From Planomonospora sp. ID82291 (GTDB lineage Bacteria > Actinomycetota > Actinomycetes > Streptosporangiales > Streptosporangiaceae), in the NCBI RefSeq assembly GCF_015711645.1, contig NZ_JABTEX010000001.1, positions 1,798,001-1,862,000 of the forward strand: DNA of 64,000 nt, read 5' to 3'. Every line of letters begins with the position of its first letter. Within the stretch, counting starts at the first letter, position 1. The notes under the pieces were generated by a model. It had not been told where the DNA came from, made no database searches, and worked only from the letters and a program-made list of their open reading frames with translations. A program made the position numbers and the translations under genes. This document shows positions 3,670-61,586 of this stretch, piece after piece.

Positions 3670-4960
3670 ATGCTGTTCGTCGGAGATGACTGGGCTGAGG
3701 ATCACCACGATGTGGAGGTCCAGGACGAGCAGGGCCGGGTGTTGAAGCGGGTCCGGTTGCCCGAGGGGATGGCCGGGATGTCCCGCTTCCACGAGCTGGT
3801 GGGCCGGTTCGTGCCGGAGGACGGCGAGCCGGCGCAGGTGCTGGTGTGCATCGAGGTCGATCGGGGCCCGTGGGTGCGGGCGCTGCGGGCGGCGGGATAC
3901 CGGGTGTTCGGGGTGGACCCCAAGCAGGCCGCCCGGCACCGGGAGATCCTCGGCTCGTCGGGGGCCAAGAGCGACAAGGGCGACGCGCACGCGCTGGCCG
4001 ACATGATCCGTACCCGCCGTAACCAGCTGCGGGAGGTCGCCGGCGACTCCGAGGTCGCCGAGGCGGTCAAGGTCGTCACCCGCGCCCATCAGACGCTGTT
4101 GTGGGAACGCACCCGCCACATGCTCCGGCTGCGGGTGGCGTTGCGGGACTACTTCCCCGCCGCTCTGGAGGCCTACAAGCCCCTCGGCCTGACCTCGGAT
4201 GCTGCGCTGAAACTCCTGGTCAAGGCCCCCACTCCGGCGACAGCGGCGAAGCTCACCGCCGTCCAGATCGCTGCCGCGCTGAAGGGGCGGCGGGATATCC
4301 CGGCCAAGGCCGAGACGATCAAGCAGGTGCTGCGGTCCGAGCAACTGGGCCAGGCCGATCTGGTCACCGCTGCCTACGCCTCGACCGTGCGGGCACTGGC
4401 CGCGGTCATCGCCACCCTCAACACGGAGATCAAGACCCTGGAAGACGAGGTCGAGGCGCATTTTGGCCGGCACCCGGACGCTGAGGTCATCCTCAGTCAG
4501 CCCGGCATCGGCGTCGTTCTCGGCGCCCGGGTGCTCGCCGAGTTCGGAGACGCTCCCGGGCGTTATGCCAGCGCGAAGGCACGCAAGAACTATGCCGGTA
4601 CCTCGCCGGTCACCCGGCAGTCCGGTAAGACGCGGACCGTTCACGCCCGGTTCGTCCACAACGATCGGCTCGTCGACGCCCTGCACCTGCAAGCCTCCTG
4701 CGCCCTCCTGCACGACGTGGACGCCCGCGCCTACTACGACCAGATCAGAGCCCGCGACGTCAGCCACAACGCCGCCCTGCGCCAGGTCGGCAACCGCCTC
4801 GTCGGCATCCTCCACGGCTGCCTCAAGAACCACACCCTCTACGACCGGGCGACCGCCTGGTCACACCGCAACCACGACCTCGCCGCTTGACATCCAAGCT
4901 CCAGGGATGTCTGACCCTCCGATCCTGACCCTCCGACGGGCAAGGACCGGCGCCTCCCCT
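3440..4960 (+). mobile_element. IS110-family insertion sequence (ends approximate)
   Basis: A single DEDD/Ser transposase gene has a long non-coding stretch before it (3432-3669, 238 bp) and a short one after it, with a reverse-strand gene beyond. That asymmetry is typical of the IS110 subgroup. No terminal inverted repeats are expected for this family and I see none, so the ends given are estimates. It sits in the gap between the GH5 gene and a convergent gene and does not break either. Confidence 0.65.
3670..4890 (+). CDS. IS110-family transposase (DEDD/serine recombinase)
   Basis: The 406-aa protein has the family layout. An N-terminal RuvC-like DEDD domain starts with VGDDWAED (Asp6/Asp7) and CIEVDRG near residue 60. 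A central helical region follows, and then the Transposase_20 domain with SQPGIG, NYAGTSP and QSGKTRT near residues 278-322, where the family's catalytic serine lies (probably Ser318). I chose ATG 3670 because VGDDW then sits at the N-terminus as in relatives. An upstream in-frame ATG at 3577 would add 31 residues that do not look like the family. It has no frameshift and appears intact, so the element may be active. Confidence 0.92.
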   Translation: MLFVGDDWAEDHHDVEVQDEQGRVLKRVRLPEGMAGMSRFHELVGRFVPEDGEPAQVLVCIEVDRGPWVRALRAAGYRVFGVDPKQAARHREILGSSGAKSDKGDAHALADMIRTRRNQLREVAGDSEVAEAVKVVTRAHQTLLWERTRHMLRLRVALRDYFPAALEAYKPLGLTSDAALKLLVKAPTPATAAKLTAVQIAAALKGRRDIPAKAETIKQVLRSEQLGQADLVTAAYASTVRALAAVIATLNTEIKTLEDEVEAHFGRHPDAEVILSQPGIGVVLGARVLAEFGDAPGRYASAKARKNYAGTSPVTRQSGKTRTVHARFVHNDRLVDALHLQASCALLHDVDARAYYDQIRARDVSHNAALRQVGNRLVGILHGCLKNHTLYDRATAWSHRNHDLAA

Positions 4961-5001
4961 CCGACCCTCCACCCCTCCGGCGGGTGCGGCGGGGAGGCGC
5001 C

Positions 5002-5646
5002 CTACAGCTCGGTGAGGAACGTGACGGCGGTGTCCGGAGGCAGGGCGAAGGCCCGGCGGGCCTCCTCTTCGAGCGCATCGTGCATGTCCGAACCGGTGGC
5101 CTCCAGTTCCAGTGCCCGCGGCGCCCCCTCCGGGGAGAACATCGCAAGCACCGACGGGCGGTTCAGGTCACCGTCCAGAGGCTCCTCCGCCCGCCGTACG
5201 GCGAAGCGCCCGCCGACCGGCTCGACGGTCAGGAGAAGCGAGGTCCGGTAACCGCTGCCGCCGATGAGCAAGGACCCGGAACGGGCGAGTTCCTCGCAGG
5301 CGGCCACGATCCCTAGCAGCAGCCGGGGGCCCTTCCGGCGCACCTCCACGAACTCCTCGTGGTAGAACACGCGTGGCGCCAGATCCGGCCTGTCGACGGC
5401 CAGGACGTAGCCTCCGACACGACCGGGATCCGTCTCCAGGAAGCGGTCAGCAGCCCCGAGGAGCGCCTCGCGCGTCGAGGCGTCGACCGGGACGACCTCC
5501 TCCCCGGCCTTTCCCTCGACGCCGGACCAGTACGGCCTCAGCACGACGGACCAGGCGACGGCCGCGATCACGAGCACCACCGCGGCTCCCGCCCATACGG
5601 CCGGCCGCCGGGAGGCTGCCGCTCGTCCCCCATGCGGTTTCGGCAT
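5002..5646 (-). CDS. Membrane-anchored protein of unknown function
   Basis: This 214-aa protein has a short basic N-terminus, one membrane helix (about residues 16-36, AVWAGAAVVLVIAAVAW) and an extracytoplasmic domain of about 175 residues. I do not recognise a family. ATG 5646 is preceded by GGGAG at good spacing. A longer frame open to 6213 has no such site and would overlap the receiver gene on the other strand. It is convergent with the IS110 transposase and divergent from the receiver gene, with about 145 bp between the two starts that probably holds both promoters. Confidence 0.6.
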   Translation of the reverse strand: MPKPHGGRAAASRRPAVWAGAAVVLVIAAVAWSVVLRPYWSGVEGKAGEEVVPVDASTREALLGAADRFLETDPGRVGGYVLAVDRPDLAPRVFYHEEFVEVRRKGPRLLLGIVAACEELARSGSLLIGGSGYRTSLLLTVEPVGGRFAVRRAEEPLDGDLNRPSVLAMFSPEGAPRALELEATGSDMHDALEEEARRAFALPPDTAVTFLTEL

Positions 5647-5790
5647 CACAGATCTCCCATCAGCGGTCTGAACGCATGGAAAAGGACAGAATATGGCCGC
5701 ACGGCCTCGGTCGGCACTCGCCGCACTTCTCTCATCTCCGCCTGGACGGTGCCGATAGGGCGGTGATGCGGATCGGAGAAGGGCGGCGGC

Positions 5791-6180
5791 GTGCTGGCGA
5801 TCGTGATCGATGATTCGAGTACCATGCGCCGGATCATTCGGCGGGTCCTGACGCGGCTGGGCTTCTCGGTGTACGAGGCCGCCCACGGCCAGGAGGCCCT
5901 CGACCTGCTGGACGAGATCCCGACGACGCCGGACGTGGCGCTGGTCGACTGGAACATGCCCGTGATGGACGGGCTGGAGTTCATCCGCCGGGTCCGCAAG
6001 ACGGACGGCATGCGCGAGATGTGCCTGATGATGGTGACCACGGAGAGCGAGCAGAGCAAGGTCGTGCGGGCGCTCGCCGCCGGCGCCCACGAGTACGTCA
6101 TCAAGCCCTTCACGCCGGAGACGATCCACGAGAAGCTCCTCTACATGGGCCTCGACTGCCATCCCGTCGGAGACGACTGA
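5791..6180 (+). CDS. Single-domain CheY-like response regulator
   Basis: The 129 residues form one receiver domain with no output domain. Asp7-Asp8 form the acidic pocket, Asp53 (in LVDWNMPVMDG) is the phosphorylation site, Thr-Thr near residue 83 and Lys in VIKPF near residue 110 complete the switch. It reads from a GTG start after GGAGAAGGG. No kinase is encoded next to it, so it probably acts by protein contact within a phosphorelay supplied from elsewhere. Some stand-alone receivers act on chemotaxis or diguanylate cyclase systems; nothing here selects between such roles. Confidence 0.85.
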   Translation: MLAIVIDDSSTMRRIIRRVLTRLGFSVYEAAHGQEALDLLDEIPTTPDVALVDWNMPVMDGLEFIRRVRKTDGMREMCLMMVTTESEQSKVVRALAAGAHEYVIKPFTPETIHEKLLYMGLDCHPVGDD

Positions 6181-6219
6181 GCCTGATACAGAGGGCGGCG
6201 GGCCGAGGCGCATCGCCTG

Positions 6220-6418
6220 TCAGCCGTCGTACCGCTCACGGACCACGTAGCGGGTGTGGGTCCCGTCCATCCACTCCCGGTCGATCTCCCTGCCCGTCAC
6301 CCTGCCGACGAGCGCCAGAGCCGACGTGAGACAGGTCGCCAGGGGCGGGCTGTACCCGCTGTGAGCGAGTCCGACGAAGTCCTGCCACTCGTCGGGGACG
6401 TCCTCCTCCCCAGTCCTC
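6220..6418 (-). pseudogene. C-terminal remnant of an unknown gene
   Basis: The reverse strand reads as a clean coding stretch with GC-rich third positions. It contains EEDVPDEWQDFVGLAHSG and ends EWMDGTHTRYVVRERYDG before the stop at 6220. No start codon or ribosome site is found. The better upstream frame (starting MRQPEHLPP) is out of phase, which suggests a frameshifted or 5'-truncated gene. I do not recognise the family. Confidence 0.35.
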
Positions 6419-6502
6419 CCTGCTCTCCAGGCGGGAGATGCTCCGGCTGCCGCATTCTTCTGGGCTCAGGGGAACGGGACCATCCGGCCCCGTCTCAACC
6501 GC

Positions 6503-6745
6503 TTACGGCTCTACGGGGTCGTTCGAGTGATCATCCCGGAGCCGGGCGCCCTCGCCGGAGGCTGGAATTTTCCGCTGTTGATAGACGGTCAGGGCCACGG
6601 CGGCAACGGCGAAGCCGACGCCGACGATGGCCAAAGCGACCAGCTGACCCGTGGCGAACGCCAGGAAGCCCGATGTGACCAAGGTGAGAAGTCCCAGGCC
6701 CAAGAGCGTTAGAAAACCGTAGGACACATTCTCCGGATCACTCAC
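6503..6745 (-). CDS. Small two-helix membrane protein
   Basis: An 80-aa protein from GTG 6745 has two hydrophobic helices (about residues 9-30 and 35-56, separated by ATGQL) and a charged tail ending SNDPVEP. The ribosome site is weak and the frame stays open further upstream without membrane or domain features, so the start is uncertain. No family is recognised. Confidence 0.5.
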   Translation of the reverse strand: MSDPENVSYGFLTLLGLGLLTLVTSGFLAFATGQLVALAIVGVGFAVAAVALTVYQQRKIPASGEGARLRDDHSNDPVEP

Positions 6746-46914: not shown

Positions 46915-47031
46915 TCTCCGTACGGCCGTCCAGGGCAGGCGCCGGAGAGCCCGGTAAAGGCCGGGACGGGGCCGGGCTCCGATGGACCGGACCCGGCCGC
47001 CGCCGCGGGACCTCTGCCCGCCGGATCCGCA

Positions 47032-47103
47032 CGCCCCGTCACGTGGACTCCACCAGGGGGAGCCGCGCGCCCCGTCACGTGGGCTCCACCAGGGGGAGCC
47101 GCG
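47032..47103. repeat. 36-bp tandem duplication at the radical SAM gene end
   Basis: CGCCCCGTCACGTGGACTCC begins a 36-bp unit at 47032 that is repeated at 47068 with one change. The stop codon of the reverse-strand gene lies in the right copy. Both copies code for the same GARLPLVE-type end. Confidence 0.88.
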
Positions 47104-48649
47104 CGCCCGGGTCGGCCGCCGCCACCGCGGAGAGCCGCTGACGGGAGAGGGCGGGCCAGGCCTGGACGGCGCAGAACGGGGCGCACTGGTCCTGGTCCGC
47201 ACGGGTGCCGACGTGCACGCAGCACTGGACCAGGCGCTCCTCCAGCATCGTCGCCATGTCCATGAACGGCTTCACGGTGATCCGGACCACGCGCTCGCCG
47301 AGCATCCGGCGGAGCCTCTCGCGCCGGCCGGGCAGCGCCGAGGAGGCCAGCGCCAGCAGGGTGGACACGCCCAGGTCGCAGTTCTCGCCGATGTTCCGCC
47401 ACAGGTCGCCGATCTGCGGGTGCGAGAGGGACGACTGCTCCGACAGCAGTCCGAGCAGCGACTCCTGTACGGCCCGGCGCAGCTCGCGGGGGATCTCCCG
47501 GTCGGCGATCCGGTTGGCCACCAGGCCGAGGTGCTCCTTGAGCCGGTCGTGGCCGATCAGGGCCGTCAGCGACCGCCACGCGCCGGAGTCGTCGCGGATC
47601 ATGTAACCGACCGAGCAGCAGTGCGGGTGCGAGCACGGCAGCGCCGTCAGGTCGCGCCAGGTGACGGTGCCGCCGGTCTGCGGTCCGAGGCGGGCGAGCA
47701 CCCCGGTGTGGGTCAGCCGGTCGAGCGGGTCGATCGCCGCCGACCGGCCGGAGCCGAACTGCGGCTGCAGGGAGACGCCGCCCACGTAGGGGGTGTCGAG
47801 CGCGAGCCGTACCACGTCGCCGATCTCGCCGTCGTTGACGCCGAGGGCCGCGGTCATGACCAGGGTCGTGAAGATCCCCCGCTCCGACAGCCGCCGTACG
47901 GCCTCCGCCTTGAGGGCGCGCAGGTCCCCGCCCCGGTGGTGGCGCGAGGCCGCGGCGGAGGTCCCGTCGTACTGCAGGTAGACCTCCACCCGCTCGCGGT
48001 GCGCGGTGAGCAGGTCGAGCAGCGCGTCGTCGCGGGCCACGGCGAGGCCGTTGGTGTTGACCAGGATCCGGGTGACCGGCCGGGCGGCGAGCCCGGCCAG
48101 GAGCGTCCCCAGCTCCGGGTGGAGGGTGGGCTCGCCGCCGCTCAGCATGAGCACGTCCAGGCGGCCGTTCTCCCTGGCCAGGCGCTGGTCGACGTTGGCC
48201 AGGACGTCGGCGACCGGGACCACCCCGCGCAGGTCGGGCGAGGAGCCGGCGAAGCAGGTCGGGCAGCGCAGGTTGCAGGTCTCGGCGATGTCCTCCAGCA
48301 GGATGCAGGTGTGCTGGGTCTGCGTCTCCGGGAGCCCCCGCAGGTACGCCGCGGGGACCGGGTCGAAGTTCCCGGGGGTGTCGGGGACGTGGGCCTTGGT
48401 GGGGGCGGTCCACTCCTCCAGGTAGGCGAGGATCTCGGGGTCCTCGTCGTAGAGGGTGCGCACCAGGCCGTGCACGCGGCAGCCGCGCTCCAGGAACACC
48501 CGGCCGTCGCGGGCGGCGAGGTAGCCGGTCAGGCGGGGTACGTCGTGCAGCGGGCGCTCGGGGTCCCCGTCGTGGCAGTGCGGGCAGAAGGCGTTGACGT
48601 AGCGGAGGATGCGGTCGCCCCGCAGCCCCATCCCGCCGGTCCCGGTCAC
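47075..48649 (-). CDS. Radical SAM protein, tetraether/membrane-spanning lipid synthase-like
   Basis: This 524-aa enzyme has an N-terminal zinc-binding-like part (CPHCHDG near residue 22, then LERGCRVHGLVRTLYDEDPE). The radical SAM cluster motif follows in ETCNLRCPTCFAGSS (about residue 115), with LMLSGGEPTLHPEL as the SAM-binding GGE. There is a Cys-rich C-terminal half (SHPHCC, CDLG, CCVHVG, CAPFC). This layout resembles archaeal Tes and the bacterial enzymes that join lipid tails. It starts with GTG overlapping the preceding stop (GTGA); ATG 48631 is an alternative. The upstream Lgt-like gene in the same operon supports a lipid role. Confidence 0.7.
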   Translation of the reverse strand: MTGTGGMGLRGDRILRYVNAFCPHCHDGDPERPLHDVPRLTGYLAARDGRVFLERGCRVHGLVRTLYDEDPEILAYLEEWTAPTKAHVPDTPGNFDPVPAAYLRGLPETQTQHTCILLEDIAETCNLRCPTCFAGSSPDLRGVVPVADVLANVDQRLARENGRLDVLMLSGGEPTLHPELGTLLAGLAARPVTRILVNTNGLAVARDDALLDLLTAHRERVEVYLQYDGTSAAASRHHRGGDLRALKAEAVRRLSERGIFTTLVMTAALGVNDGEIGDVVRLALDTPYVGGVSLQPQFGSGRSAAIDPLDRLTHTGVLARLGPQTGGTVTWRDLTALPCSHPHCCSVGYMIRDDSGAWRSLTALIGHDRLKEHLGLVANRIADREIPRELRRAVQESLLGLLSEQSSLSHPQIGDLWRNIGENCDLGVSTLLALASSALPGRRERLRRMLGERVVRITVKPFMDMATMLEERLVQCCVHVGTRADQDQCAPFCAVQAWPALSRQRLSAVAAADPGARLPLVEPT

Positions 48650-49122
48650 GGGTAGAGCCCGGGGTTGAGGCCGGTGCAGAACCCGGCGCTGAAGATCGAG
48701 ACCAGTGCCCAGCCGAGCATGAGGCCGATCCCCAGTCCTTTGGACCACGCCTCTCTCCTGCGGACCAGCGCGACCCCGGTGCCGAAGGTCCCCAGCGCCA
48801 GGATCACCGCCGCCACGCCGATGCCCACGGACGATTCGGTCGAGATCGCCAGGAGCCCGATCAGCACGTCGAGGGCGACGAAGGCGAGGATGCCGACGAA
48901 CGTCAGCCCCACGACCACTCCCGTGGAGCCGCCGGATGGGGGCCGCCCGCTCCACTGCGGCGGCGGACCCGGCGGACCGGACGGGGCGCCGTACGGTCCC
49001 CGGGGCGGTTCCCCCGGCGGACCCGGAGGCCCCGGCGGACCGGGCGGGCCGGGCGGTCCCTGGGGCGGTTCCCCCGGCGGACCCGGCGGGCCGGGCGGTC
49101 CCTGGGGCGGCGGCGTGGTCAT
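48646..49122 (-). CDS. Gly-Pro-Pro-rich protein with membrane helices
   Basis: The 158-aa protein starts with about 60 residues of collagen-like PPGPPG repeats. Three membrane helices follow (about residues 68-92, 98-118 and 130-150). It is locked between the lgt-like and the radical SAM gene by ATGA and GTGA overlaps. Its function is unknown, but its position suggests it supports the other two at the membrane. Confidence 0.7.
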   Translation of the reverse strand: MTTPPPQGPPGPPGPPGEPPQGPPGPPGPPGPPGPPGEPPRGPYGAPSGPPGPPPQWSGRPPSGGSTGVVVGLTFVGILAFVALDVLIGLLAISTESSVGIGVAAVILALGTFGTGVALVRRREAWSKGLGIGLMLGWALVSIFSAGFCTGLNPGLYP

Positions 49123-49904
49123 GCGCGGGCCTCCTGCCTGCGGACGAGCGCGTCGTAGAAGCCCCGGCGGTAGCCGTACCGGAGCCTGAGGGCGACCAGC
49201 AGCAGGCCCGGGACGAGGAACCACTGCGGGCGGGTGAGGTCCAGCCAGACCGTCTCGTTGGCCCGGGTGAACTCCACGAGGAACCGGAAGACGGCGTAGG
49301 CCGCGACGTAGAGGGTGAACAGCTCGCCCGGCCGGGTGATCCGGCTCCGCAGCCACCAGAGCGCACCGAAGGCCGCCAGCTGGAAGGCGGCCTCGTACAG
49401 GAACGACGGGTGCATGGCCTGCCCGGCCAGGCAGCCGGGGCAGGCGGGCGTGGCGGCGGGGGCGTGCACGCCCCACGGCAGGTCCGTGGGACGGCCGGGG
49501 GCCTCGGTGAGGTGGCAGCCGATCCGGCCGACCGCCATGCCGAGCGCGACCGCGGGCGCGAACAGGTCGCCGGTCCGCTCCCGGTACCCGATCAGCCGCT
49601 TGGCGAGGAGCACGCCCGCGTAGGCGCCGGTCAGCCCACCCAGGATGCTCCGGGAGCCGAACATCCAGGCTTCCAGCAGGCTCGGGTTGAGCGCCGGGTC
49701 GAGGTGCTCGGCCCAGCCGGACAGCCGCATGCCGACCGCCCCGCCGACCAGTGCCCCGGTGACCGCCACCAGCGACTGCTCGGCCGGCGCGCCCCGGCGG
49801 CGGGCCTCGGCGACGAAGACCGCCGCGGCGGCCAGCACCCCCAGGACGACGAAGAGGCCGTGCACCGGCACGGACCGCCCCCCGACCCCGATCACCGGCT
49901 CCAT
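49119..49904 (-). CDS. Lgt-like (prolipoprotein diacylglyceryl transferase family) protein
   Basis: The 261-aa membrane protein has seven helices and recognisable Lgt segments: GGLTGAYAG, the signature GRIGCHLTEAPGRPTDLPWG (about residues 130-149) and HPSFLYEA. It is more distant than housekeeping Lgt: the usual GNFIN is replaced by GCHLT. It may transfer a diacylglycerol or glycerophosphate-linked lipid to something other than a lipoprotein. ATG 49904 fits the family start. It heads a three-gene coupled operon with the radical SAM gene. Confidence 0.75.
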   Translation of the reverse strand: MEPVIGVGGRSVPVHGLFVVLGVLAAAAVFVAEARRRGAPAEQSLVAVTGALVGGAVGMRLSGWAEHLDPALNPSLLEAWMFGSRSILGGLTGAYAGVLLAKRLIGYRERTGDLFAPAVALGMAVGRIGCHLTEAPGRPTDLPWGVHAPAATPACPGCLAGQAMHPSFLYEAAFQLAAFGALWWLRSRITRPGELFTLYVAAYAVFRFLVEFTRANETVWLDLTRPQWFLVPGLLLVALRLRYGYRRGFYDALVRRQEARA

Positions 49905-51839: not shown

Positions 51840-52090
51840 CAGTGGATCTCCAGGGAAAAGCAAGTCGTCGAGGCCATCGTCTGTCCAGGGCCTTGAACTC
51901 CTCTCCGGCCTGAAGGCCGGAGATTCTCCCGTCACGTCGCGGTCAAGCGGCGCGCGGGGGTTGACGCTTCGCAGACCGGGTGACCCCTGAGTCTCCACGT
52001 CCTGCCACCACAGTTCCTGCGGCGGTTTCGATATTGATCGCGGCGTTGGTGTCGGCGTGACCGGTCCACCCGCATGCGTGGTCGGTGCAG
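51840..52090 (-). ncRNA. Candidate omega RNA of TnpB
   Basis: TnpB proteins use an RNA made from the 3' end of tnpB and the adjoining element end, with the guide reading into the flanking DNA. Here the tnpB 3' end (51943) runs into the terminal hairpin (51903-51922). The guide would be the 15-20 bases just to the left of the element end. Exact ends cannot be told from sequence alone. Confidence 0.35.
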
Positions 52091-53205
52091 GAGAACCTGA
52101 TCCCGTCGCGGGCGGCCGGGTCGCGGTGACGGCATCGGTGGCAGGTCTGCGACGTGCCTGCCGCCGGGACTTTCACCACCCGGCCGCCGCGATCAGCGGT
52201 CTTGTACTCCAGCATGGTGACGGTTCGGCCCCAGGCTTGGCCGCTGATCGCCCGGTTCAGCCCGGCTTTCTGCGCGACGTTACGGCCGGGCTGCTCGGTG
52301 GTGCCGCGTGCTGAGCGGATCATGTTGGTGATCTGCAGGTCTTCCACCCCGATCTCGCTGAACGCTTCGGCGAGTTCGGTGCTGGTCCGGTGCTGCCAGC
52401 AGACGGCCCGGCGCTTGGCTGTCGCGCGGAGCCTGCCGATCTGGCGGTAGGTGCGGGCCTGCCGGTTCGAGATCGGCCGGCCCTTGCGATGGGCGGCCCG
52501 CTGCCGGGCGGCCTTCTTCTCCAACCGGCGCAGCCGTTCCTTCTCCCCCTCGCTCAGCCACGGCCCGTGTTCACGGGTGGTGCCGTCCGACAGGGCCAGG
52601 GCGACGTTGATGCCCCGGTCGATACCGATCCTGCCACCCGGATGCGGTGGCGGGATCACGGCTGGGGTTTCGGTACGGAAGACGATCTGCCAGCCGTAGG
52701 CGTCCTTGACCAGCCGGGCCCCGGTGATCCGCCCGGCCGGCCCGCCTCGGGTGACGCCGGGCAGGTCTTTGGTCCACCGGAACCGGACCCGGCCGGCTTT
52801 GGGCAGGTTGACCGCTCCCCACCGCCGGTTGATCCTCCCGATGTGCAGGTCACGGGCTTGGGGGACGTCCACCGCCATCCGGGAGCGCCGGGACTTGAAC
52901 GTCGGACGCATCGCCGGATGGTCGGGGTTGAAGAAGTTCGCCCATGCTTGCCGGTAGGTCTTCAGCACCGCCTGGGCGGCCTGGGCGGGAAGCCGGGCCA
53001 TCCAGTCGATCTGGTGGCGGGCGGCCCGGATCGCCTCGTCGCACGCTTTCAGCGGAGCCAGGCGGCCCTGGCGGAACGTGGTGTACTCGTGCAGCAGGTT
53101 CCATAGCGCGCGGGCGGTGTGCGCCTGGCCGTCCAGCAGCGCGCTTTGCGCGGCGGTCAGGTCGAGACGCGCCACGTGCGCCCGGGCCCGCTTCTGCTGT
53201 TTCAC
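51943..53205 (-). CDS. tnpB: TnpB RNA-guided nuclease
   Basis: The 420-aa protein has the TnpB layout: helical N-terminus, wedge region, RuvC motif I in GIDRGINVAL (Asp about 196), and RuvC II in EIGVEDLQITNM. The zinc finger reads CHRC...CTDHACGW. RuvC III is in HADTNAAINI. All three acids of the nuclease site are present, so it is probably active. It would cut DNA at sites emptied by transposition and thereby retain the element. Confidence 0.93.
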   Translation of the reverse strand: MKQQKRARAHVARLDLTAAQSALLDGQAHTARALWNLLHEYTTFRQGRLAPLKACDEAIRAARHQIDWMARLPAQAAQAVLKTYRQAWANFFNPDHPAMRPTFKSRRSRMAVDVPQARDLHIGRINRRWGAVNLPKAGRVRFRWTKDLPGVTRGGPAGRITGARLVKDAYGWQIVFRTETPAVIPPPHPGGRIGIDRGINVALALSDGTTREHGPWLSEGEKERLRRLEKKAARQRAAHRKGRPISNRQARTYRQIGRLRATAKRRAVCWQHRTSTELAEAFSEIGVEDLQITNMIRSARGTTEQPGRNVAQKAGLNRAISGQAWGRTVTMLEYKTADRGGRVVKVPAAGTSQTCHRCRHRDPAARDGIRFSCTDHACGWTGHADTNAAINIETAAGTVVAGRGDSGVTRSAKRQPPRAA

Positions 53206-53228
53206 CCGCTGATCGTATCATTTGGTTT

Positions 53229-53657
53229 ATGTCACCGCGATGGGAACCGAATCCCGAGGTCCGTACCGGGCGCCATGTCGTCTACAGCCTTCACGCTCAT
53301 TTGGTGTTCGTCACAAAATACCGGCGTGGGGTGTTCACCGACGCGATGCTGACCCGCTGCGAGGAGATCATGCGGGAGGTGTGTGCGGACTTCGAGACCG
53401 AACTGCGCGAGTTCAACGGCGAACACGACCATGTCCACCTGCTCATCCACTACCCGCCCAAGGTGGCCCTCTCGAAACTGGTCAACAGCCTCAAAGGCGT
53501 CTCGGCGCGCCTGCTCCGCAAGGAATACGCCTGCCACGTCCGCCGATATCTGTGGGGCGGACATTTCTGGTCCGGCTCCTACTTCGCCGGGTCGGTGGGT
53601 GGAGCACCGCTGACGGTCCTGCGCCAGTACATCGAGCAGCAGCAACGACCACTCTGA
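53229..53657 (+). CDS. tnpA: TnpA Y1 transposase (IS200/IS605)
   Basis: A 142-aa HUH single-strand transposase has the metal-binding HDHVHLLIHYPP motif (about residue 61) and the nucleophile Tyr in RQYIEQQQ (about 134). It starts 23 bases from the tnpB start on the opposite strand. All key residues are present. Confidence 0.93.
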   Translation: MSPRWEPNPEVRTGRHVVYSLHAHLVFVTKYRRGVFTDAMLTRCEEIMREVCADFETELREFNGEHDHVHLLIHYPPKVALSKLVNSLKGVSARLLRKEYACHVRRYLWGGHFWSGSYFAGSVGGAPLTVLRQYIEQQQRPL

Positions 53658-53805
53658 GCAAGGCGGACGCCGGTTCGCCTGGCGGCGAATCGGCTGTTCC
53701 TGCCCCGCTATGCGGGGCGGTCGGCTTCACCCCGGCCTGAAGGCCGGAGCACTGCCGACGAACCCGGTAGATCGCGGTCCTGCACGACCAGAGGGGAGGA
53801 ATGCC

Positions 53806-53991
53806 ATGCGCGGCATTCTCACGATCGAAGATCTTCCTGCGGGCGTCTCCGAGCTCGCGGGCGAGGAACTGGAGACCGTCGCCGGCATCGACATCGTCCT
53901 GGACGACGGCACCGTGATCCAGGCGGGCATGAACCCCGGATCGGGCTACGTCTGCACCGCCAGCGCGGCAGGCGACTGCCGCCAGGCCTGA
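53806..53991 (+). CDS. RiPP precursor peptide
   Basis: This 61-aa peptide has a leader-like half that ends in SELAGEELETVAG. It recalls double-glycine-type leaders recognised by C39 peptidases, with Ala26-Gly27 at the expected cut. The putative core (residues 28-61) has four Asp, several Thr/Ser and two Cys (Cys50, Cys58), enough for the side-chain links made by ATP-grasp enzymes. It has an excellent GGGGAGGA site. It is followed by three hairpins and then by an ATP-grasp, a PpiC-related and a C39-ABC gene on the same strand. Nothing shows what the final product does. Confidence 0.75.
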   Translation: MRGILTIEDLPAGVSELAGEELETVAGIDIVLDDGTVIQAGMNPGSGYVCTASAAGDCRQA

Positions 53992-58706: not shown

Positions 58707-61586
58707 GTGAGCGCTGAACCGGCCGGGCTGCACTTCTCCGTCCTGGGCCCGCTGACGGTGACCCGCGGGACGGAGCGGATCGACCTCGCAGGAGCCCGTG
58801 CCAGGACCCTGGTGGCGACGCTCCTCATCGCGCAGGGCACGATGGTGACGACCGACCGCATCATCGACGCGATGTGGGGAAAGCGGCCTCCGAACAGCGG
58901 GACGGCCACCCTGTACTCGTACATCACCAAGGTCAGGAAGGTCCTGGAGCCGGACCGGCCTCCCCGCGCGGCCACGGGTCTCCTCGACCGCCAGGGACCG
59001 GGCTACGTCCTGCGCGTCCGACCGGAAGCGGTGGACTCCGAGCGCTTCACCGCTCTGGCGGAGCGCGGCGCGCGGCTGCTGCCCGACGATCCGGCGGCGG
59101 CGCTGGAGAGCCTCACGGCCGCGCTGGCGCTGTGGCGCGGCCCCGCCTACGCCGACCTCGGCGACACCGACGTGGCGGCCGTGGAGATCTCCCGCCTGGA
59201 GAACGCCCGGCTGACCGCCCGCCAGGATCACGCGGCGGCCCGCCTCGCGACGGGCGCGGCCGCCCAGGCGGTGGGGGAACTGGAGCCGCTGGTCCGCGAG
59301 CACCCCCTGACCGAGCGGTCCTGGGAACTCCTCGCGCTCGCCCTGTACCGGGCCGGGCGGCAGGGGGACGCCCTGGCCGCCCTCCGCACGGCGCGCGAGC
59401 GGCTGGCGGAGGAACTCGGCGTGGACCCCGGCCCCGCGCTGCGCGCCATGGAGGCCGCGGTGCTCCGGCAGGACCCCGCCCTGGACCGGTCGCCCGGGAA
59501 GGAGCCGGCGGCGGTCGCCCGGCCCGTCGAGCCGGGGGAACCCGCCCGCCCGCGGCTTCCGGTGCCGCTGACCCGCCTCATCGGACGCGACGCCGCCGTG
59601 GACGCGATCGAGGGTCTGCTCGCCGCGCACCGGCTGGTCACGATCACCGGTCCCGCCGGAGCGGGCAAGAGCCGCACGGCCCTGGAGATCGCTCGGAGGC
59701 GCCGGGACGGGGACGGCCCCTGGCTGGCGCTCCTGGCCGACGTGACGGACGCGGAGCTGCTGCCGACCGCGGTCGGCGCGGCGATGGGCACGGCCGTCAC
59801 GGCCGACGCCGACCACCTCGCCGCGTCGATCGGCGACCGGGAGACGCTGCTCGTCCTCGACAACTGCGAACACCTGGTCGACGAGGTCGCGCCGCTCGCG
59901 GAGGCGCTGCTGTCCCGCTGCCCCGGCCTGCGGCTGCTCGCCACGAGTCGCGAGCCGCTGGCCGTCGCGGGGGAGACGACCTGGGAACTGCTGCCGCTGG
60001 ATCCCGATGGGGCGGCCGTCGAGCTTTTCGTGGAACGATCCGTCGCCGTCCGCCCGGGTCTGCGCCCACGGCACGACGAACGGGAGCTGATCTCCCGGAT
60101 CTGCCGGGAACTGGACGGCCTCCCCCTGGCCATCGAACTCGCGGCGGCCCAGACCCGGGTCCTGTCCCTCGACCGGATCGCCGCCGGGCTCCACGACCGG
60201 TTCACCCTGCTGTCCTCCGGCCCCCGCACCGCCCCGGAACGCCATCGGAGCCTGGAGGCGGCGATCGCGTCGAGCGTGCGTCTGCTCACCCCTCCCGAGA
60301 GGGAGCTGCTCGGCGGCCTGAGCCTCTTCGAGGGCGGGTTCGACCTGGAGGCGGCCGAGCAGGTGGCGGGGTCTCCGGCGGTGACGCCCAGGCTGAGCGG
60401 TCTCGTCGCCAAGTCGCTGGTCACCGTGGACGGCGCCGCGACGCCCCGGCGCTACCGGATGCTGGAGACCATCCGGCAGTACGCCGTCCGCGACCTGCCC
60501 GCCGGCGAGCGGGACCGGTGGGCCGGCCGCCACCTCGCGTGGGCGGTGGAGCTGGCCGAGACGGCCGAACGGCGCCTGCGCACCTTCGACGGGGAACTCT
60601 GGCTGCGCAGGATCCGGCACGAGCAGGCGAACATGCGGGCCGCCCTCGGCCACGCCCTGGCCACGGGCGACGGGGACTCCGCGCTGCGCGTCGCCTCCGC
60701 GCTGTCATGGTTCTGGTACCGCGACGGCGACGTGCACGAGGGCATCGCGTGGCTGTCCGAGGCCCTCGGCCGTACGGGCGCCGACCATCCGGGGCGGGCA
60801 CGGGCGCTGGTCGGGCGGGCGCTGCTCCGCTATCTCCAGGGCGACCCGTCCGCCGGGAACGACGACATCGAGCTCGCGCTGCGGCAGGCCGCGGCCACCG
60901 GTGAGGTGGAGGTCATGGCCCGCGCCCTGCCGTACCGGGCGTACTTCCTCCAGCTCAGCGGGGACCCCGGGCGGGCGCGGATCGCGCTCGCCGAGGGCCG
61001 CGAGCACGTGCGGACCGCGGGACTGTCCTGGATCGAGGCCGAGACGATGATGGTTCGCGGGCAGATCACCCGGGCGGCGGGTGATCCGCTGCTCGCCGTC
61101 GAACAACTCGCGCGGGCCGCCGACATCGCCGAGGCCTGCGGCCATGACTGGGCGTACTGCTCCGCGGGCTGGATCGCGGCGAAGGTCGCCATGGACCTGG
61201 GCGAGGCCGACCGGGCGGTGCAGCAGATGGCCCGCATGGTCGTGCGCCTCGACCGCATGCAGGACGTGACCTCCTGGCTCGCCTGCGCCCACGTGCTCGC
61301 CGGAGCGCTCGGCATGACGGGTCGCGCGGTGGACGGCGCGGTGCTCCTCGGCGCGGTCTCGGCCATCGGTTCCCGGGTGGGCTACTCCCCCGAGCTCATG
61401 GATCCGCTGGACGGCCCCCGGAACGTCGCCGCCGTGCGGACCGCCCTGCCGCCGGAGGCGTACGACCAGGCGACGGCCATGGGATCGAGCCTCACGAAGG
61501 AGGACGCCACCGCGATGGCGCGCCGCCTCATCGTGACCGCCCCCGGCGACCACCGGCGGACGGCCCTGCGCCGCGACCGCTCCTGA
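58707..61586 (+). CDS. SARP/AfsR-like regulator with NB-ARC and TPR regions
   Basis: The 959-aa protein has an OmpR-like DNA-binding domain and bacterial transcriptional activator domain (about residues 1-245; FSVLGPLTVTRGTERIDLAG at the start). An NB-ARC ATPase (P-loop TGPAGAGKSRTALEIA about 312, DNCEHLVDE, SRICRELDGLPLAIELAAA) follows, then a TPR-like C-terminal half. SARPs activate biosynthesis clusters. It stands 225 bp after the exporter on the same strand, so it is a good candidate activator of the RiPP locus. Confidence 0.9.
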   Translation: MSAEPAGLHFSVLGPLTVTRGTERIDLAGARARTLVATLLIAQGTMVTTDRIIDAMWGKRPPNSGTATLYSYITKVRKVLEPDRPPRAATGLLDRQGPGYVLRVRPEAVDSERFTALAERGARLLPDDPAAALESLTAALALWRGPAYADLGDTDVAAVEISRLENARLTARQDHAAARLATGAAAQAVGELEPLVREHPLTERSWELLALALYRAGRQGDALAALRTARERLAEELGVDPGPALRAMEAAVLRQDPALDRSPGKEPAAVARPVEPGEPARPRLPVPLTRLIGRDAAVDAIEGLLAAHRLVTITGPAGAGKSRTALEIARRRRDGDGPWLALLADVTDAELLPTAVGAAMGTAVTADADHLAASIGDRETLLVLDNCEHLVDEVAPLAEALLSRCPGLRLLATSREPLAVAGETTWELLPLDPDGAAVELFVERSVAVRPGLRPRHDERELISRICRELDGLPLAIELAAAQTRVLSLDRIAAGLHDRFTLLSSGPRTAPERHRSLEAAIASSVRLLTPPERELLGGLSLFEGGFDLEAAEQVAGSPAVTPRLSGLVAKSLVTVDGAATPRRYRMLETIRQYAVRDLPAGERDRWAGRHLAWAVELAETAERRLRTFDGELWLRRIRHEQANMRAALGHALATGDGDSALRVASALSWFWYRDGDVHEGIAWLSEALGRTGADHPGRARALVGRALLRYLQGDPSAGNDDIELALRQAAATGEVEVMARALPYRAYFLQLSGDPGRARIALAEGREHVRTAGLSWIEAETMMVRGQITRAAGDPLLAVEQLARAADIAEACGHDWAYCSAGWIAAKVAMDLGEADRAVQQMARMVVRLDRMQDVTSWLACAHVLAGALGMTGRAVDGAVLLGAVSAIGSRVGYSPELMDPLDGPRNVAAVRTALPPEAYDQATAMGSSLTKEDATAMARRLIVTAPGDHRRTALRRDRS

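Follow-up and report, generated by a model that had tools for sequence, protein, structure and literature searches.

A three-gene module was found in a 64,000-nucleotide window of Planomonospora sp. ID82291 (contig NZ_JABTEX010000001.1, positions 1,798,001 to 1,862,000 of the forward strand), in which an enzyme resembling prolipoprotein diacylglyceryl transferase (Lgt) and a radical SAM protein with the fold of the archaeal lipid-coupling enzyme GDGT-MAS/Tes flank a small membrane protein that ends in a conserved C-terminal cysteine. The gene module itself is well supported, and we tentatively propose that the Lgt-like protein lipidates this cysteine and that the radical SAM protein modifies the chains of the attached lipid or of its donor. 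The three open reading frames (ORFs) overlap on the minus strand, in the order Lgt-like enzyme, middle protein (hereafter the tail protein) and radical SAM protein, as follows:

49119..49904, minus strand: Lgt-like membrane enzyme P0002 (261 amino acids, ATG start)
49119..49122, minus strand: ATGA stop/start overlap from the Lgt-like gene to the tail protein gene, read on the coding strand
48646..49122, minus strand: tail protein P0001 (middle gene, "Gly-Pro" protein; 158 amino acids)
48676..48678, minus strand: codon of Cys149, the conserved C-terminal cysteine and candidate lipidation site (computed position)
48646..48649, minus strand: GTGA stop/start overlap from the tail protein gene to the radical SAM gene, read on the coding strand
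47075..48649, minus strand: radical SAM protein P0003 with the Tes/GDGT-MAS fold (524 amino acids, GTG start)
46915..47074, no strand assigned: site 3′ of the radical SAM gene, the position of a fourth gene in most relatives and empty here (from comparison of loci)

Both overlaps lie where a preliminary description of this stretch had joined the three genes. To follow the module further, the best 80 of 295 related places in the species collection were compared. The radical SAM gene was present in all 80 loci and the Lgt-like gene lay upstream of it in 79, the remaining locus (L011) being truncated by the start of its contig. The pair occurs in Streptosporangiaceae, Mycobacteriaceae and Nocardiaceae loci, and since it is kept in 79/80 loci and the flanking genes vary between groups (nine representative loci inspected), a chance arrangement can be excluded.

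The two enzymes also co-occur across genomes. The radical SAM subfamily (66–100% identity) was found in 17 of 296 Actinomycetes genomes and the Lgt-like gene (E ≤ 1e-40) in the same 17, adjacent in each of them; the p-value of 5.5e-28 for these identical genome sets ignores phylogeny and treats genomes as independent that are not. A sample of the phylum yielded the subfamily in 10 of 396 genomes, with the Lgt-like gene alongside in all ten. Of 27 further radical SAM loci, Tes-like or more weakly related (inspected mostly over flanks of ~1.5 kb, some cut by contig ends), 20 had a methyltransferase nearby and one an Lgt-like gene. This single exception resides on pPP1, a plasmid of the Bacteroidota species Persicobacter psychrovividus, with an overlapping trio once more:

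4265–5011: Lgt-like protein
5001–6395: Tes-like radical SAM protein
6392–6571: protein of 59 amino acids

The gene for the 59-residue protein overlaps the radical SAM stop codon and its product ends in ...YFVIGTGICGSLLS. When searched against all plasmids (E ≤ 1e-8), the Persicobacter Lgt-like protein matched, besides itself, only three actinomycete module Lgts, and the module was also found on M. avium and M. branderi plasmids. Viral contigs contained only two distant Lgts of the ordinary type and no match for the Persicobacter radical SAM protein. As a separate observation, one actinomycete clade of Tes-like radical SAM proteins (L084, L116, L137–L145) stands apart and has a methyltransferase directly downstream, and the haloarchaeal locus L118 carries a Tes-like radical SAM and methyltransferase pair too.

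The tail protein of the window has a Pro/Gly-rich N-terminus, three hydrophobic stretches and a last helix ending in SAGFC-TGLNPGLYP, and it matched no Pfam or NCBIfam family. Among relatives the N-terminus is variable and often Pro/Gly-rich, but the C-terminal 30 residues are conserved, and the view that the middle gene encodes an arbitrary Gly-Pro protein was rejected on these grounds. Its earlier designation as a "Gly-Pro membrane protein" thus keeps the membrane protein, the conserved C-terminus being a better description than the variable Gly-Pro stretch. The C-terminal plan consists of a positive loop, a hydrophobic helix and then SAG-x-C-TG-x-NP-x-x-Y, with G, W, C, T, G, N, P and Y as invariant columns in 31 aligned tails. 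This helix-Cys tail is present in 79 of the 80 loci, the exception (L022) being cut by the start of its contig. Two tandem copies occur in 20 loci, bringing the number of tails to 99, and 95 of these retain C-T-[GA]-x-[NS]-[PT]; the other four are second copies from one mycobacterial group. Tandem tails (L017, L019, L023, L030, L034 and others) differ in their N-termini and have the same C-terminal motif. In L098, L099, L102, L133, L134 and L135 the tail is unlike that of the window by BLAST, yet it shows the helix, G-x-C or similar, and then 7–10 residues. The helix-Cys background scan by itself detected 71/80 loci, and the count of 79/80 was reached by a re-audit, partly through corrected gene starts (L010, L011, L013, L061, L075 and L080). 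Outside the operons the scan returned four matches in 996 kb over both strands, and one of 25 control loci was positive, through an antisense match.

A lipoprotein signal peptide comprises a positive n-region, an h-region and a lipobox, as outlined in the available excerpt of PMC8689077. The tail likewise has a positive n-region, a hydrophobic helix and a cysteine at its outer end (i.e., K-GLGIGLMLGWALVSIFSAGF-C), and by the positive-inside rule this cysteine would face outward. The lipobox [LVI][ASTVI][GAS]C of an N-terminal signal peptide is not matched, the tail reading A-G-F-C near its C-terminus. The tail is, in other words, the geometry of a lipoprotein signal peptide and lipobox moved to the C-terminus. 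Since a large residue (mostly F, I, L, Y or W) stands where a small one usually precedes the cysteine, signal peptidase II should spare the tail.

In the radical SAM protein, Pfam recognised PF04055 (66.1 bits) and PF23545 (HMPTM N-terminal zinc ribbon; 33.0 bits, cut-off 27). The radical SAM protein of its closest named relative, P. parontospora, is 96% identical, and the sole strong solved relative is GDGT-MAS (7tol; E 5.6e-29). The AlphaFold model (mean predicted local distance difference test score, pLDDT, of 83.6) matched 7tom and 7tol over the whole length with Foldseek template modelling (TM) scores of 0.72 and 0.71, respectively, and aligned to 7tol with Z 41.3 (449 residues, 3.3 Å, 22% identity), the next entry following at Z 19.9. 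Alignment with 7tol and relatives revealed a retained GGEPT motif, and both the rubredoxin-type C-x2-C ... C-x2-H (C22, C25, C57 and H60) and the CX3CX2C of the SAM cluster (C125, C129 and C132) were invariant in 49 aligned rows. The C-terminal half contains C339, C344, C424, C476, C477 and C493, of which C476, C477 and C493 align to the CC...PFC of 7tol and are probably the ligands of a C-terminal auxiliary cluster. The N-terminal C..C (C22/C25), the GCxxHG motif (reading GCRVHG, with C57/H60) and the many C-terminal cysteines had all been pointed out beforehand and hold. At the positions of the N-terminal auxiliary [4Fe-4S] cysteines (GDGT-MAS C73/C77/C80), no Cys was present in the eight module members aligned; the Persicobacter protein retains these cysteines. 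Lys460 and Val480 occupy the columns of GDGT-MAS Met439 and Tyr459.

Both curated NCBIfam models scored below threshold, i.e., 132.6 bits vs. a cut-off of 450 for Tes (NF045702) and 184.5 bits vs. a cut-off of 490 for TrsS (NF045646), the latter being the best curated profile. Since distant Tes-like proteins mostly score near-equal on the two models, the preference for TrsS was not read as kinship. In a 49-row tree a 100/100 branch set the module radical SAM proteins, on a very long stem, apart from the rest; the deeper branching order is unsure because of long branches elsewhere in the tree. An assignment as plain Tes or TrsS was rejected, given the missed cut-offs and the lost cysteines, and the module radical SAM proteins are a clade of their own with the full GDGT-MAS fold, not to be filed as Tes. 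The Tes-like label of the preliminary description therefore survives as far as the best solved relative and the fold are concerned, and gives way at the Tes cut-off and the absent N-terminal cluster cysteines; the outcome that it named as refuting, a grouping with unrelated radical SAM families, did not occur, the module lying on a separate branch.

The Lgt-like protein was identified as such by PF01790 (120.7 bits vs. a cut-off of 24.9) and by its fold, in agreement with the earlier naming, and remained below the cut-off of the Lgt equivalog TIGR00544 (78.8 vs. 118.9 bits). Its AF2 model (mean pLDDT 76.6) aligned to E. coli Lgt (5azb) with Z 18.0 over 237 residues (root-mean-square deviation 3.5), the next chain being at Z 8.1. 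R127, Y203, R207 and E211, which correspond to E. coli R143, Y235, R239 and E243, were invariant in 40 aligned Lgt-like rows, as were C130 (E. coli N146) and H15 (E. coli Y26). R143 and R239, both indispensable to E. coli Lgt, probably position the donor phosphate, and N146C occurs in distant Lgts. Two further, higher-scoring ordinary Lgts are encoded in the genome of the window, and a 100/100 branch splits the module and Persicobacter Lgt-like proteins from nine other Lgts. Near the module in L075 (M. senegalense) lies a gene that we take to encode enolase, as presumably one does near MSMEG_5408, the second Lgt homolog of M. smegmatis. MSMEG_5408 carries Y26H and N146C according to the available part of PMC13251419, and M. 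smegmatis may offer a laboratory model for the module.

The fate of the tail in genomes without an intact module was examined as well. A tail profile was positive in 15 of the 296 class genomes, namely 14 of the 17 module genomes (the three missed carry divergent tails) and G608. The orphan tail of G608 (L154, 6660–7250), which is syntenic with the window, reads SYGVGTGVYPGLY, its conserved cysteine having become Gly, and neither the Lgt-like nor the radical SAM gene was found in this genome at the thresholds used. Among 205 family genomes, 36 had the radical SAM gene; a strong tail was confined to 34 of those 36. The Lgt-like gene is decayed in both radical SAM genomes that lack a strong tail (G698 and G730): here the radical SAM sequence is down to 66–69% identity and in one of the two its frame is broken, whilst the Lgt-like and tail genes are mere remnants. 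In G710, the radical SAM gene has a frame break and the Lgt-like and tail genes are intact. When orphan tails were defined as homologs at E 1e-4 or stronger in genomes without the radical SAM gene, 14 weaker homologs were obtained, G608 included. The cysteine was lost in six of these (to Gly, Leu or Phe), and the other eight, all from genus g377, keep it but stop before P-x-x-Y; the p-value of 3.9e-6 for cysteine retention (79/79 vs. 8/14) ignores phylogeny and is drawn from loci that are not independent. An M15 peptidase gene, as in the window, adjoins the G608 tail and at least two of three other orphans inspected. When three orphan genomes were searched again, nothing related to the radical SAM protein appeared at E ≤ 1e-15, and Lgt matches reached at most 33–34% identity. 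Decay of one part of the module thus tends to be accompanied by decay of the others, the chief departure being the cysteine kept in g377.

Built on the gene linkage, the predicted folds, the kept and lost residues and the cysteine with its pattern of decay, the proposed lipidation would proceed as follows. The last helix of the tail would span the membrane from the positive cytoplasmic side to the outside, ending in the cysteine and a short tail, onto whose thiol the Lgt-like protein would move a diacylglyceryl group from phosphatidylglycerol. As signal peptidase II would not cut, the helix would stay in place. The radical SAM protein, acting on the donor or on the attached lipid, would abstract hydrogen at the far end of the alkyl chains and join or otherwise modify them, yielding an unusual and perhaps membrane-spanning or macrocyclic anchor. 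What we infer from sequence is the topology, the transfer to the cysteine, how the chains are altered and in which order the steps run. The further step, in which the attached acyl chains would be linked with one another or with chains in the other leaflet, stapling the protein to a membrane-spanning or macrocyclic lipid, is unlikely in our estimate; it would combine a C-terminal lipoprotein pathway with archaeal-type coupling in aerobic actinomycetes, and Bacteroidota would have a second form of it. A lipid or lipid-anchor function, as the preliminary description had suggested, fits the Lgt-like and Tes-like assignments, and the conserved tail cysteine, which it had not noticed, turns this function into a concrete and testable substrate.

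Several points weigh against lipidation of the tail. No tail protein was found in family f46 (L148–L150, 13.6–18 kb scanned), though its Lgt-like and radical SAM genes overlap. The natural experiment on loss of the cysteine is not clean: the g377 orphans retain it without the enzymes, and two of the 36 family genomes with the radical SAM gene lack a strong tail, both with a decayed Lgt-like gene as well. On the enzyme side, E. coli Lgt H103 is Leu in the Lgt-like protein, the E. coli enzyme depends on N146 and Y26, and MSMEG_5408, which shares both replacements, is presumed to have low Lgt activity (PMC13251419, in the part available). The radical SAM protein scores higher on TrsS than on Tes, and one of its auxiliary clusters is gone. 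The literature searched yielded no report that these organisms have membrane-spanning lipids.

The radical SAM protein might instead couple the acyl chains of phosphatidylglycerol into free membrane-spanning phospholipids, as Mss and Tes do, with the Lgt-like and tail proteins placing, flipping or regulating the lipid and protein lipidation unneeded. We consider this somewhat unlikely, although the predicted full-length GDGT-MAS fold agrees with it, as does the presence of both enzymes in f46 in the absence of a detectable tail protein. Moreover, Mss and Tes act on phospholipids and are unselective for ester or ether bonds (PMC13274423, in excerpt), and Mss-type genes have been counted in Actinobacteriota metagenome-assembled genomes (PMC11868695, likewise in excerpt). 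However, such free lipids would leave unexplained both the obligate Lgt-like partner, which 26 of the 27 other Tes-like or weakly related loci do without, and the tail protein, whose C-terminal cysteine is conserved, which is often duplicated and which decays where the enzymes are missing. PF09989, which we take to be the marker domain of the ether-forming Ger/PlsA enzymes, gave no match in the genome of the window; ether formation of the Ger/PlsA kind is therefore unlikely, though ester-linked spanning lipids would not need this domain.

Two other readings shift the substrate away from lipid chains. It is quite unlikely that the radical SAM protein is TrsS-like with a non-lipid substrate and that the Lgt-like and tail proteins serve as a membrane scaffold: TrsS is the best curated profile at 184.5 bits and a methyltransferase accompanies most non-module relatives (20/27, haloarchaea too), but this score is far under the cut-off, the preference says little when distant relatives mostly score near-equal on both profiles, and no methyltransferase was matched at module members. 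A little less probable still is a pathway akin to that of ribosomally synthesized and post-translationally modified peptides (RiPPs), in which the radical SAM protein would act on the tail itself (e.g., by cross-linking its last residues) and the Lgt-like protein would lipidate it to a lipopeptide-like product. Variable N-termini, a conserved C-terminal recognition motif and tandem copies do resemble RiPP precursors, and DAG-RiPPs, which make use of the lipoprotein pathway, have conserved motifs at the C-terminus (PMC12636315, in the available part). Among the fold matches that follow GDGT-MAS are MoaA and two peptide maturases (SuiB and SkfB), but these are much weaker (Z 18–20 vs. 41.3). GDGT-MAS furthermore has a hydrophobic lipid tunnel (PMC9433317, in excerpt), and the cysteine, with the residues after it, is predicted to be outside the membrane and so at a distance from an enzyme in the cytoplasm.

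Each enzyme is a variant within a known family; their pairing, the C-terminal cysteine partner and the co-decay are new within the literature searched, where no description of the module was found and where, among the matches listed, only one paper, an annotation of Haemophilus proteins, brought a radical SAM and a prolipoprotein diacylglyceryl transferase together. Lgt is known to lipidate proteins at N-terminal lipoboxes, and the known targets of tetraether-type chain coupling are free membrane lipids. If true, tail lipidation would thus be an undescribed way of anchoring proteins to lipids, and a candidate substrate that can be mutated at a single residue would make the stapling of proteins to coupled lipids directly testable in bacteria. 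It would also give a hypothesised function to the divergent N146C/Y26H Lgt paralogues of mycobacteria, nocardiae and antibiotic-producing actinomycetes, which are now read as weak Lgts. Conversely, caution is due with metagenomes, as Tes/Mss-like genes should not be equated with producers of tetraether lipids unless their operon partners are checked.

Next to the radical SAM gene, the fourth gene of relatives encodes a two-helix protein of ~90 residues (DPLRLC...SKCxLRDTRLVLAYL). It lies 3′ of the radical SAM gene in 62 loci, among them three other Planomonospora loci (L004, L006 and L014), and in 12 of the 17 module genomes of the class sample (weakly in one further genome), and a search at E ≤ 0.001 found it neither in the window nor anywhere else in that genome. 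A repeated unit (CGCCCCGTCACGTGG-CTCCACCAGGGGGAGCCGCGCG) was seen at window 47033–47106, at the 3′ end of the radical SAM gene, i.e., the fourth-gene position in relatives. Elsewhere in the window, positions 51943–53657 carry a pair of the IS200/IS605 type, with a TnpB-like gene (PF07282, PF01385) on the minus strand and a Y1 transposase gene (PF01797) on the plus strand. A short ORF at 53710–53991 without a Pfam match may be a RiPP precursor, as it has a stretch resembling a leader (LTIEDLPAGVSELAGEELETVAG) and, close to its end, two cysteines, and a SARP-like transcriptional activator (BTAD/Trans_reg_C) is encoded at 58707–61586.

Finally, the module can be set against known systems. With GDGT-MAS/Tes of M. 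jannaschii (7tol/7tom), its radical SAM protein shares the whole fold, the rubredoxin-type motif, CX3CX2C and the C-terminal CC...C, but it lacks C73/C77/C80, has Lys for the labile Met439 and Val for Tyr459, and comes with an Lgt-like operon partner. Met439 and Tyr459 are fully conserved in archaeal GDGT-MAS homologs, and the variants M439A, Y459F and Y459L remain active, as stated in the available part of PMC9433317. TrsS (NF045646) is shared as best curated profile; it differs in the missed cut-off, and no matching operon partners were seen. Mss, compared by description only, differs in having been described together with Ger, whose presumed marker PF09989 is absent here. It is a bacterial chain-coupling enzyme with a Tes-like architecture (PMC13274423, in excerpt), a likeness to the module protein that would extend to acyl-chain substrates. 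E. coli Lgt (5azb) shares the fold and the equivalents of R143, Y235, R239 and E243, in contrast to N146C, Y26H, the change of H103 to Leu and the separate 100/100 branch on the module side. MSMEG_5408 has Y26H and N146C in common with the module and differs in being reported only as a presumed low-activity Lgt in the available part of PMC13251419. DAG-RiPPs differ by an N-terminal signal peptide and lipobox and by MNIO enzymes, with no dedicated Lgt paralogue mentioned in the excerpt of PMC12636315, and what they would have in common with the module is the use of the lipoprotein pathway for gene-encoded products whose C-terminal motifs are conserved.

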